Origin: Deltaproteobacteria bacterium RBG_13_61_14
GTDB taxonomy: Bacteria; RBG-13-61-14
Direction of reading: 5' to 3'
Assembly (NCBI GenBank): GCA_001797815.1
Contig: MGQK01000051.1
Location: forward strand, 24,243-32,431
Length of the DNA: 8,189 nucleotides
The position numbers and the translations under genes were made by a program. Numbering within the stretch: position 1 is the stretch's first letter; every line of letters begins with the position of its first letter. Of this stretch, positions 2,106 through 5,524 are shown piece after piece. The notes under the pieces are model-generated. The model was given only the letters and a program-made list of their open reading frames with translations, was not told where the DNA came from and did not search any database.

Positions 2106-2134
2106 TTGACAAGTATGTTGATATGTGTCAACAT
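2106..2134 (+). promoter_or_regulatory. Candidate promoter of the ArsR-like gene
   Basis: A consensus -35 TTGACA (2106-2111) is followed after 17 bp by a weak -10, CAACAT (2129-2134). Initiation near 2141 would place the transcript start almost on the ATG at 2143, giving a leaderless or near-leaderless mRNA. This agrees with the lack of any ribosome-binding site there. The -10 is poor, so the exact promoter is uncertain. Confidence 0.4.
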
Positions 2135-2139
2135 GTCAA
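2112..2139 (-). promoter_or_regulatory. Candidate divergent promoter for the GT-C gene
   Basis: Read on the minus strand, TTGACA (2139-2134) is followed after 16 bp by CATACT (2117-2112), four of six matches to TATAAT. It overlaps the plus-strand promoter almost completely, so the two could not be occupied at once, and both lie inside the palindromic operator. Confidence 0.35.
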
Positions 2140-2142
2140 CAA

Positions 2143-2520
2143 ATGAAAAAGCCCATCCGCAAACGCAGCCTTTCGCCGGCCCCGGCCGTCTGCTGCCCGG
2201 GCCGCGGGCCGGACCTTTTCTTGCAGCCCTTTTTCAAGACCATCCTGGAGGAGACGCGGCGGAACCTGATCCGCTTCATCGGCCGCAACCCGGGCCTGAC
2301 CGCGGGGGAGATCGCGGCTGCTTTTGCCCAGGACCGCAGCACCATCTCGCACCATCTCTCGGTCATGACCACTCACGGCTTTCTCATCGCCGCCAAGCAA
2401 GGCCGCCACCGGCGTTTTCGGGTGAACCGCGATTACATTGTCCAGACCCTGGAAGAGATCACCGAATCCATTCGCGATTGTTGTTCAAGAAACGATAAGG
2501 GGTCAGTGCTTGACTTATGA
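2143..2520 (+). CDS. ArsR/SmtB-like winged-helix regulator with two vicinal Cys pairs
   Basis: The 125-residue protein has the size and fold signature of an ArsR-type repressor. Residues 33-62 form helices leading into the helix-turn-helix (GLTAGEIAAAF, 51-61). The recognition helix is DRSTISHHLSVMTTHGFL (64-81), and the wing is AAKQGRHRRFRVN (83-95). Cysteine pairs C17-C18 in the N-terminal arm and C113-C114 in the last helix are candidate soft-metal ligands. ArsR-family sensors often place thiols in just these terminal elements, so metal release of DNA is likely but inferred. The ATG at 2143 is preferred; a GTG at 2125 would put coding sequence inside the operator, and neither has a ribosome-binding site. 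The final codons (from about 2499) and the stop lie in a palindromic repeat, so the tail KGSVLDL is probably not ancestral. The gene ends 48 bp before the HgcA-like fusion, and ArsR-like regulators have been reported upstream of hgcAB in some genomes. Confidence 0.8.
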   Translation: MKKPIRKRSLSPAPAVCCPGRGPDLFLQPFFKTILEETRRNLIRFIGRNPGLTAGEIAAAFAQDRSTISHHLSVMTTHGFLIAAKQGRHRRFRVNRDYIVQTLEEITESIRDCCSRNDKGSVLDL

Positions 2521-2557: not shown

Positions 2558-2563
2558 AAGAGG
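2558..2563 (+). promoter_or_regulatory. Ribosome-binding site of the methyltransferase-HgcA fusion
   Basis: AAGAGG lies 5 nt before the ATG at 2569 and fixes that start. It begins at the very next base after the palindromic repeat, so folding of that repeat could affect its accessibility. Confidence 0.7.
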
Positions 2564-2568
2564 CTGTC

Positions 2569-4164
2569 ATGTCTTACATTTATATGAAAATTTTGGAACG
2601 GAGGCCGGCGCGCTACGACGCCGGGATCCGGCGCCTTTCCGGCCAGGACTGGCCGGCCATCCGGGAAAAAATCTTGCAAGGGGTCAAGCCTGGCGAGCGG
2701 GTGCTGGAGATCGGGTGCGGCCCGGGCACACTGGCGCTCGAGCTGGCGCGGCGGGGGGCGCAGGTCCTTGCGCTCGACCACAACCCGGAGATGCTCACTT
2801 ATGCCCGGGGCCAGGCGGCGGAGGCTGGGGTCCAGGTGGAATTTGGGAAGCTTCCGGCGGAGGAGCTGGCCCGGCTGCAAGGCCGCTTTGATTGGGTGGT
2901 GGCATCGCTCAGCTTCTCCGAGCTGCGGCCGATCGTGCGGCGGGCGGTGCTGGTCTGGCTGCGGCGCTTGCTCAAAGAAGGCGGCCGGTTGGTGGTGGTG
3001 GACGAGGTGGTGCCGGAGAGTGCGGGCGCATGGTGGCGCTACCAGCTCTCGCGCGCCTGGCACGGGCTTCTCACCTGGCTGCGCACTCGGAAAACCACCC
3101 GGCCGCTTTCGGATTTTCAAGCAGAGCTGAGCGAGGCGGGTTATCGGATCCTTTGCGAAGAAACCTTGGCCCCGGGTAACCTCCGGCTGTGGGAAGCCCA
3201 GCCTGGGGAACAGGATGCACTTCCGGAGCCGGCGGTCTTGTCCGGCGGCTGGGGCTTGAGCGATTGGGTGGAAAGTTTTTTCCTGTGGCTCTCCTCCCAT
3301 CTTCTCAAGGTTCCATTTCGGCCCGGGCTCTATCGCATCGGCCGTCCCGGTCCGGAGGCTCCCCTGCTCGCCACCAGCAACTACCGGCTGACCGTGAACC
3401 TGGTGCGCAAGCACCTGGCCGGCCGCGACGCCTGGCTCCTGGTTAACGACACCCGGGGCGTCAACGTCTGGTGCTCGGCCGGGGAGGGAACCTTTTCCGC
3501 TGCGGAGATTGCTTTGACTTTGGCCGCGAGCCGGGCCGACCGATTCGTAAGCCACCGGCAGTTGATCTTGCCCAAGCTCTGCTTGAACGGGGTCAATCGC
3601 CGGGAGGTGAAAGAGCGGAGCGGCTTCCGCGCTCTGATCGGGCCGGTTTACGCGCGGGACCTGCCCGCTTACCTCGATCACAGTTACGAAAAAACCGAGG
3701 TCATGGAGCAAGTGCATTTCAACTTCTGGGACCGGATGTGGATCGGCGTGCCTTTTACCCTGCTGCTGGTGCTGGTCCCTGGCGTGCTGGCCCTGGGGCT
3801 GGGAAGATGGATCAGGCCCACCCTGCCGCTGTGGTTTGCCCTGGCAGGGATGCTGATTGCGGTGAGTTACACCTGGCTCCCGACCCGCCGGCACCTGGTC
3901 AAGGGGCTGATCCTGGGCGCGCTCCTGGCCGCGGCCGGCGGGGTCTACCTCTTCTGGCAGCAGGCGCCGGGAATCCGCATCGGCCGCAGCATGGCGCTGC
4001 TCCTGGCGCTAGAGCTTTTCGTGACCGCGGATTTCTCCGGGGCCACCCCGGTCAGCAACCGCACCCTGGTGGAACAGGAATTCAAATGGATCTATATTAT
4101 TCTGGTGATTCTCATTGTCCTCTATTTCGCTTTGCCCAGCCTGAAGGAGGTCTGGCCATGGTAA
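2569..4164 (+). CDS. hgcA: SAM-dependent methyltransferase fused to HgcA-like membrane corrinoid protein
   Basis: The 531-residue protein has two parts. Residues 1-210 are a class I SAM methyltransferase: motif I VLEIGCGPG (45-53), acidic D70 after the second strand, FDWVVASLSFSEL (107-119), and LLKEGGRLVVVDEV (134-147). The opening MSYIYMKILE...RYDAGI resembles, from memory, 'corrinoid protein-associated methyltransferases' (CpaM). Residues about 228-531 are a full HgcA: PGLYRIGRPGPEAPLLATSNY (252-272), cap helix NVWCSAGE (299-306) with cobalt-ligand candidate C302, PKLCLNGV (335-342), EVKERSGFRALIGPVYARDLPAYL (346-369), then five membrane helices (about 391-410, 421-437, 443-463, 474-489, 507-522), with DFSGATPVS at 488-496. 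Canonical HgcA accepts a methyl group on corrinoid and transfers it to Hg(II). Here methyl loading from SAM by the N-terminal domain is inferred. The motif differs from canonical N(V/I)WCA(A/S)GK at two places (S303, E306), so mercury may not be the acceptor. The gene overlaps the ferredoxin gene by 7 nt. Confidence 0.88.
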   Translation: MSYIYMKILERRPARYDAGIRRLSGQDWPAIREKILQGVKPGERVLEIGCGPGTLALELARRGAQVLALDHNPEMLTYARGQAAEAGVQVEFGKLPAEELARLQGRFDWVVASLSFSELRPIVRRAVLVWLRRLLKEGGRLVVVDEVVPESAGAWWRYQLSRAWHGLLTWLRTRKTTRPLSDFQAELSEAGYRILCEETLAPGNLRLWEAQPGEQDALPEPAVLSGGWGLSDWVESFFLWLSSHLLKVPFRPGLYRIGRPGPEAPLLATSNYRLTVNLVRKHLAGRDAWLLVNDTRGVNVWCSAGEGTFSAAEIALTLAASRADRFVSHRQLILPKLCLNGVNRREVKERSGFRALIGPVYARDLPAYLDHSYEKTEVMEQVHFNFWDRMWIGVPFTLLLVLVPGVLALGLGRWIRPTLPLWFALAGMLIAVSYTWLPTRRHLVKGLILGALLAAAGGVYLFWQQAPGIRIGRSMALLLALELFVTADFSGATPVSNRTLVEQEFKWIYIILVILIVLYFALPSLKEVWPW

Positions 4165-4495: not shown

Positions 4496-5524
4496 ATGAA
4501 TCCGGCCGAGGCTCGGCGCCTGGGCTTGAGGGAGACGCCGGCGGCCTGGGAAATTGAGGCCGGCCAGGGTCTGCGCTCGCTTCAGTCTCTTGGTTTGCGT
4601 TTTCCCGGAACAACCTGGGACCTTAAGGCGCTGGGGCAAGTGGCGGCGCGTTATCCCGTTCTGGTGACGCCCTATTACGCCTCCCTGATCGAGCGGCCGG
4701 AGCCGGGGGACCCGATCTTCCGGCAATGTGCGCCTTCGCCGGAGGAGTTGGTCAACTCGGGGGACTTGAGTCCCGACCCGCTGGCGGAGGGAAAGTTCAT
4801 GCCGGCGCCGGGGCTGGTCCATCGCTACCCGGACCGCTGCCTTTTGCTTTTGACCAACGCCTGCTTTGTTTATTGCCGGCATTGCCTGCGCAAGCGAATT
4901 TGGGGCATCAGCCAAGGCCGCTACGACCGCCGGCATTTCCTCCGGATGCGGGACTATCTCGCCGCCACGCCCTCGGTGCGCGAGGCCATCCTCTCCGGCG
5001 GCGACCCGCTCACCTTGAGCAACCGCGAGCTTGAGTTTGTGCTCGGCTCGCTCCGCGCCATCTCCCACCTGGAAGTGATCCGCATCCATACCCGCGCGCC
5101 GGCGGTCTTGCCGGCCCGGATTGACTCCGGGGTCCTCGCTTTGCTCGACCGCTTCGGCCCGATCTGGCTCAACACCCAGTTCAACCATCTCCGGGAGATC
5201 ACGGAAGAAGCCGCGGCCGCGGTGGACCGTCTGCTGCGGGCCGGGGTGCCGGTGGGGAACCAGGGGGTATTGCTGAAGGGAATCAACGATGACCTGGAGA
5301 CCCAGCGGGCGCTCCATCTGGGACTGGTCCGGATCAAGGTGCGGCCGTATTATTTGTTTCACTGCGACCCGGCGGAAGGCGTGGGCCATTTCCGGACCTC
5401 GGTGGAGTGCGGGCAGCGGATCGTCCAGGAGCTGAGCCGCAGCCTCTCGGGCTTGGCCATCCCAACCTTCGCAATGGAGCTTCCCGAGGGCGGGGGCAAG
5501 GTGCGGATGAGCCTACCCGGATAA
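4496..5524 (+). CDS. KamA-family radical SAM / PLP aminomutase (lysine 2,3-aminomutase or EpmB-like)
   Basis: The 342-residue cytosolic enzyme has the radical SAM motif CX3CX2C in ACFVYCRHC (C123, C127, C130), preceded by HRYPDRCLLLLT (109-120), both typical of the KamA family. LSGGDPLTL (166-174), HTRAP (198-202) and VRPYYLFHCDPAEG (282-295) are further family blocks. GGGK (332-335) carries the probable PLP-binding lysine K335. The protein ends seven residues later, so it lacks the C-terminal extension of classical lysine 2,3-aminomutases (about 416 residues) and has the length of EpmB, which makes beta-lysine for EF-P modification. No efp or epmA gene is in the window. The aspartate that contacts the substrate amino group just before the PLP loop in lysine enzymes appears as E328 (AMELP). 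The start at 4496 has GAGGAG (4480-4485) ten nt upstream. Family: sure; substrate: not determined. Confidence 0.85.
   Translation: MNPAEARRLGLRETPAAWEIEAGQGLRSLQSLGLRFPGTTWDLKALGQVAARYPVLVTPYYASLIERPEPGDPIFRQCAPSPEELVNSGDLSPDPLAEGKFMPAPGLVHRYPDRCLLLLTNACFVYCRHCLRKRIWGISQGRYDRRHFLRMRDYLAATPSVREAILSGGDPLTLSNRELEFVLGSLRAISHLEVIRIHTRAPAVLPARIDSGVLALLDRFGPIWLNTQFNHLREITEEAAAAVDRLLRAGVPVGNQGVLLKGINDDLETQRALHLGLVRIKVRPYYLFHCDPAEGVGHFRTSVECGQRIVQELSRSLSGLAIPTFAMELPEGGGKVRMSLPG

Follow-up and report, generated by a model that had tools for sequence, protein, structure and literature searches.

An in-frame fusion of a CpaM methyltransferase and an HgcA-like corrinoid protein, with fused relatives in other genomes

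Background

The described systems closest to the locus reported here are canonical HgcA (NF040863), the HgcAB-like proteins (NF043039), the methyltransferase CpaM (NF043040) and the large subunit of CFeSP (PDB 2ycl, 4djd). Purified canonical HgcAB has its Co(I) methylated by SAM with stoichiometric formation of SAH and without CpaM (PMC11588087; PNAS 2024), whereas CFeSP receives its methyl group from methyl-THF via a TIM-barrel enzyme. For full mercury methylation in ND132, HgcB must have Cys73 as well as one or more cysteines in its tail (PMC7305189). Regulators of the ArsR type are known upstream of bacterial hgcAB, which they control (PMC7438021, PMC10349881). Two organisms with fused hgcAB genes produced no methylmercury (PMC5893877).

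The name of CpaM, “corrinoid protein-associated methyltransferase”, indicates that its pairing with a corrinoid protein is known to NCBI curators (NF043040). In full-text searches of open-licence papers, no biochemical work on a CpaM was found. As a rule, class I methyltransferases modify O, N, C or S, and methylation of cobalt by this fold would be unusual; the SAM domain of MetH has a different fold. A CpaM-HgcA-like fusion addresses two questions, namely the source of the cobalt methyl group in HgcA-type proteins and the function of HgcAB-like proteins that form no methylmercury.

Methods

The window (the whole stretch of 8,189 nucleotides that was analysed) comes from Deltaproteobacteria bacterium RBG_13_61_14. 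The fusion protein was modelled with AlphaFold2 from an alignment of 60 locus proteins, without cofactors. The HgcA tree comprised 48 rows and was rooted on CFeSP. CpaM was surveyed in 386 genomes spread over many families, with the seven best candidates per genome being scored, and named genomes were additionally scanned with a CpaM alignment.

Results and discussion

The fusion is a single polypeptide

An earlier note on this DNA had described one uninterrupted frame holding a methyltransferase and an HgcA-like protein, and its coordinates and frame agreed with those obtained here (Table 1). The frame runs from an ATG (2569-2571) to a TAA (4162-4164) over 531 codons with zero internal stops, and the identical open frame is carried by the whole-genome record (G000:C51:26811-28403). 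Across the junction of the two halves, GC at the third codon position remains high throughout (0.66-0.92) in a single frame. The AlphaFold2 model (mean pLDDT 91.3, pTM 0.86) consists of a Rossmann methyltransferase, then a corrinoid domain, then five C-terminal helices, with a pLDDT of 70-83 in the linker region (residues 211-250).

An assembly or sequencing artefact that joined two genes is scarcely credible. The window genome is fragmented (132 contigs) and probably metagenome-assembled, which would favour such an error, but four fused homologues were found in other genomes, the coding statistics stay in frame through the linker, and the operon order is common to the window and to the sister fusion L138 of genome G311. 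Chance joining is excluded because homologues in other genomes show the same domain order, and a joining error is ruled out by the fused homologues together with the in-frame linker. The fusion is genuine.

Table 1 Features of the fusion locus (positions in the window)
Feature	Position	Strand	Basis
Imperfect inverted repeat TTGACAAGTATGTTGATATGTGTCAACAT, candidate operator/promoter region	2106..2134	.	sequence; function inferred
ArsR-family HTH regulator, paired cysteines near both ends	2125..2520	+	Pfam HTH_20/HTH_5
AAGAGG, possible ribosome-binding site of fusion gene	2558..2563	+	sequence
cpaM-hgcA-like fusion gene, 531 aa	2569..4164	+	open frame, profiles, model
CpaM class I SAM methyltransferase domain, residues 2-211	2572..3201	+	NF043040, Coq5 fold
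Inter-domain linker and N-terminal helix of HgcA half, residues 212-245	3202..3303	+	alignment, lower pLDDT
HgcA-type corrinoid-binding domain, residues 246-373	3304..3687	+	CFeSP fold, PF03599
Cap-helix motif NVWCSAGE, presumed cobalt-ligand cysteine C302	3463..3486	+	sequence
Five membrane helices of HgcA half, residues 386-528	3724..4152	+	model secondary structure
AAGGAGG, strong ribosome-binding site of hgcB inside fusion gene end	4144..4150	+	sequence
HgcB-like two-cluster ferredoxin, 85 aa	4158..4415	+	NF040864 below cut-off, alignment

The N-terminal half is a CpaM

The methyltransferase half matches the full CpaM profile above its cut-off (228.2 bits against 180; positions 1-215 of 216). 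It carries the family's N-terminal signature MKILExxPxxYDxGI, the SAM-binding motif I VLEIGCGPG at residues 45-53, where the earlier note had placed it, and D70. Residues 11-213 of the model superpose on SAM-bound Coq5 (Z 21.3, rmsd 2.5 over 199 residues). Like other members of the family, which lie beside HgcA-like genes or are fused to them, this CpaM is encoded with an HgcA-like corrinoid protein, here by in-frame fusion. CpaM usually has its own gene, some 215 codons long, whereas here it makes up the N-terminal half of a longer protein.

The HgcA-like half scores below the cut-offs of both described families

The C-terminal half shares with canonical HgcA the cap-helix cysteine (NVWC at residues 299-302), five membrane helices, a separate downstream hgcB and an upstream arsR. 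The five membrane helices claimed by the earlier note were present in the model after the corrinoid domain (residues 386-411, 418-436, 442-463, 468-489 and 498-528), and the best Foldseek match of the model was PDB 9a0b, a deposited HgcAB model. To call this half a complete HgcA, as that note did, was nevertheless an overstatement: residues 250-518 reached 207.2 bits against the HgcA profile, under the curated cut-off of 275, and the sister protein L138 reached 231 bits. The HgcA motif N(V/I)WCA(A/G)(A/G)K (PMC8163782) is altered to NVWCSAGE, with the cysteine kept, A replaced by S and K replaced by E; L138 has NVWCAAGE, and the canonical-clade member L010 also has E. The fusion also carries a methyltransferase of a kind missing from genomes with canonical HgcA alone.

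The HgcAB-like proteins resemble the fusion in their CpaM partner and in their HgcA-like corrinoid and membrane domains. The same residues scored 204.8 bits against that profile, again below the cut-off (285). The window protein is without the C-terminal HgcB domain, HgcB being a separate gene, and this HgcB has an equivalent of Cys73, unlike most HgcAB-like proteins examined. The corrinoid domain is alike in fold to the CFeSP large subunit (rmsd 1.3-1.4 Å over 124-126 residues, Z 19.6-19.7), which differs from the window protein in having its own cluster domain and in having neither a membrane domain nor a cap cysteine.

In the tree, the window protein and L138 formed their own clade (support 95/93) outside both canonical HgcA (24 rows, 100/97) and the CpaM-associated HgcAB-like group (19 rows, 94/98). 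Grouping of the pair with the HgcAB-like clade had a support of only 25/0, and a position as sister to canonical HgcA was not rejected (AU p 0.58). At 33 columns specific to canonical HgcA, the canonical residue was present in 10 for the window protein and in 13 for L138. Filing the protein as canonical HgcA fails on score and motif, the sister position being compatible with the tree, and filing it as HgcAB-like fails on score and architecture. From these comparisons, the HgcA half appears to form a third deep branch of HgcA-like proteins.

Neighbouring genes

The start of the HgcB-like gene overlaps the end of the fusion gene, lying four bases ahead of its stop codon. Its product scored 69.8 bits against NF040864, below the cut-off of 99. 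It has two CxxCxxCxxxC motifs (CNGCGECVAVC and CMECGACGLNC, the latter with the C(M/I)ECGA sequence), a cysteine aligned with Cys73 (in GVACFAC) and a C-terminal CACAC tail; the tail cysteines are absent from the HgcB of L138. In the genome that carries L138 (G311), fusion and hgcB are set apart by a stretch of roughly 380 bases in which GAGCGAAGCGAAGAATCTC motifs recur (L198:5213-5592), and hgcB has its own strong ribosome-binding site.

The ArsR-family gene may start at GTG 2125 or ATG 2143. Its matches to NCBIfam metalloregulators were all below cut-off, and its product is 35% identical to the ArsR encoded directly upstream of the L138 fusion (E 2e-26). The inverted repeat TTGACAAGTATGTTGATATGTGTCAACAT has inner perfect 7-nt arms (2115-2121/2128-2134) and covers the start region of arsR; no matching repeat was found in the sister locus L198. 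Downstream, a KamA-type radical SAM protein, a ZIP transporter, a dTDP-sugar reductase and a ClC channel are encoded, with no evident link to the fusion. The first of these (4496-5521) belongs to the KamA family (TIGR00238 above cut-off) and is related to lysine 2,3-aminomutase, below the cut-off of that equivalog. On the minus strand, 16-2064 encode a 682-aa membrane protein with zero Pfam or NCBIfam matches at E 0.001.

Recurrence of the fusion in other genomes

Four further fusions were recovered in other genomes; the earlier note had advised a search for proteins of the same domain order. The fusion of G311, which belongs to another phylum, aligns with the window protein along its entire length at 43% identity and shares the operon arsR-fusion-hgcB. 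Among named genomes, the alignment scan detected at least nine true CpaM loci; in two of these (L061 and L063, both Chloroflexi), CpaM is fused to an HgcA-like protein and followed by a separate ferredoxin gene, and in the remainder it precedes an HgcA-like or HgcAB-like gene. A 592-aa triple fusion of CpaM, HgcA and HgcB in one chain was found in G109 (L139:1252-3030, minus strand). That genome also encodes a separate canonical HgcA on a different contig.

CpaM lies directly N-terminal to the corrinoid domain in all five fusions. A single clade of the five was rejected (AU p 0.00012), as was one of the four two-domain fusions (AU p 0.005), which implies repeated gain or loss of the fused state, with at least three changes by parsimony. 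One ancestral fusion is rejected by the AU tests; fusion and fission are not distinguishable from one another. When three genomes each were examined from the phyla of the window genome and of G311, the fusion was present only in those two genomes. The earlier note had held that the fusion would fall if relatives always encoded two separate proteins; some relatives are split and others are fused. No relatives of the fusion were found on the viral contigs or plasmids searched.

Pairing of CpaM with HgcA-like proteins

In the 386 genomes, 13 CpaM copies were found (one, in G058, is cut by a contig end and scores below cut-off), of which 3 are fused to an HgcA-like gene and 10 lie beside one; among the seven best candidates per genome, no orphan CpaM without an HgcA-like partner was seen. 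Tree distances of CpaM and of the HgcA-like proteins are correlated (r 0.71, Mantel p 1e-4, 21 pairs). The two CpaM copies of the window genome each keep their own HgcA partner lineage, and species history alone is therefore an insufficient explanation. Taken together, repeated fusion, strict pairing and co-divergence speak for an action of CpaM on the corrinoid protein or in concert with it.

Proposed mechanism and alternative roles of CpaM

Since SAM is the shown methyl donor to the Co(I) of canonical HgcAB, the simplest reading would be a transfer from SAM via CpaM to Co(I), and CpaM is most simply regarded as a putative SAM:cob(I) methyl loader of its HgcA-like partner. We consider it probable (roughly 60%) that the fusion is a self-contained methyl-transfer unit in which CpaM passes the methyl group of SAM to the cobalt of the HgcA half, from which it reaches an acceptor. 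The HgcB-like ferredoxin would reduce the corrinoid to Co(I), the CpaM domain would bind SAM and hand its methyl group to cobalt, yielding methyl-Co(III) and SAH, and the Cys302-ligated methylcorrinoid would then give the methyl group to an acceptor at the membrane, probably a thiol-bound metal or metalloid and possibly mercury. We infer cobalt as the acceptor of CpaM, the order of the steps and the final acceptor. If this reading is true, CpaM would be a rare example of a class I SAM methyltransferase with cobalt as its methyl acceptor. The occurrence of a SAM enzyme and a corrinoid domain in one chain, repeatedly in unrelated bacteria, makes loading by CpaM testable in one protein.

CpaM may instead belong to the same pathway and act on something other than cobalt, adding a second methyl group or methylating the product, an intermediate or a side chain, with the HgcA half taking its methyl directly from SAM. 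Canonical HgcAB accepts the methyl group of SAM alone (PMC11588087), so a separate methyltransferase is in principle unneeded and CpaM may act otherwise; moreover, the neighbours of CpaM by fold and profile include quinone, small-molecule and metalloid methyltransferases, and fusion and gene order indicate a common pathway, not a common step. The strict pairing and co-divergence with the corrinoid protein, and the position of CpaM directly before the corrinoid domain in every fusion, weigh the other way, and we regard this alternative as possible but rather unlikely. Distinctly less probable is a role of CpaM in repair, by reductive methylation of oxidised corrinoid, or in the reverse reaction, removing the methyl group from methyl-Co(III), while catalysis draws on a different donor. 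SAM serves such reductive reactivation of an oxidised corrinoid in MetH, a parallel that counts for repair, as does the dedicated ferredoxin beside the fusion, but among the genes flanking the fusion in the window, none is recognisable as encoding a further methyl-donor enzyme. Loading of cobalt by CpaM is retained as the preferred reading.

The earlier note had gone further, regarding the fusion as direct evidence, at the genomic level, for loading of the HgcA corrinoid by a SAM enzyme. That claim did not hold: CpaM above cut-off occurs in 0/23 genomes with canonical HgcA alone, and purified canonical HgcAB takes the SAM methyl unaided (PMC11588087). Given these two results, the fusion informs the CpaM branch and not the loading of canonical HgcA; for that side branch only, it is strong indirect evidence of a SAM enzyme loading a corrinoid.

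Mercury methylation

Several features would fit mercury as a substrate, namely the cap cysteine, the Cys73 equivalent and tail cysteines of a canonical-like separate HgcB, and the upstream arsR. Against it stand the score below the HgcA cut-off, the changed motif (WCS, and E for K), a CpaM partner otherwise typical of the HgcAB-like family and the lack of methylmercury production in the two organisms with fused hgcAB (PMC5893877). G311 holds a canonical HgcA in addition to its window-type fusion, which suggests a different job for the fusion. On sequence features, we lean against mercury as the main substrate of the fusion branch. It is conceivable, though doubtful, that the fusions represent a third, unrecognised HgcA branch with its own SAM-to-cobalt methyltransferase that still methylates mercury or another metal and is overlooked by profile and motif screens. 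This branch may escape surveys of methylmercury producers, since the HgcA half does not pass the usual score and motif filters and yet its HgcB retains the cysteines on which mercury methylation depends.

The earlier note knew of no description of this architecture. Full-text searches of open-licence papers likewise turned up no paper that treats CpaM together with corrinoids, an HgcA-methyltransferase fusion or this third branch. Judged by these searches, the new elements are the fusion and its recurrence, the triple fusion, the co-divergence of CpaM with HgcA-like proteins and the putative third HgcA branch.

Further observations at CpaM loci

An uncultured Nitrospina encodes a CpaM/HgcA-like pair (L058:4625-8087) in which the HgcA-like protein is without an HgcB domain, and the same pair type occurs in G007/L019. 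Companions of the former pair, named by eye, are a MerR-like regulator, a DUF169-like protein and a cysteine-rich YHS/TRASH-like metal protein; the pair bears on claims of mercury methylation by marine Nitrospina. In two unrelated phyla, cpaM is immediately preceded by a DUF169-like gene (by eye; L064:5255-5971, L058:5177-5887). Directly 3' of the HgcAB-like gene, an isoprenylcysteine-methyltransferase-like membrane ORF (by eye) was seen in one bacterium and one archaeon (L065:7838-8353, L066:2422-2973). The HgcAB-like gene of L016/G058:C506 has one in-frame TGA ahead of the corrinoid motif, which may be read as selenocysteine, a frame error or decay.
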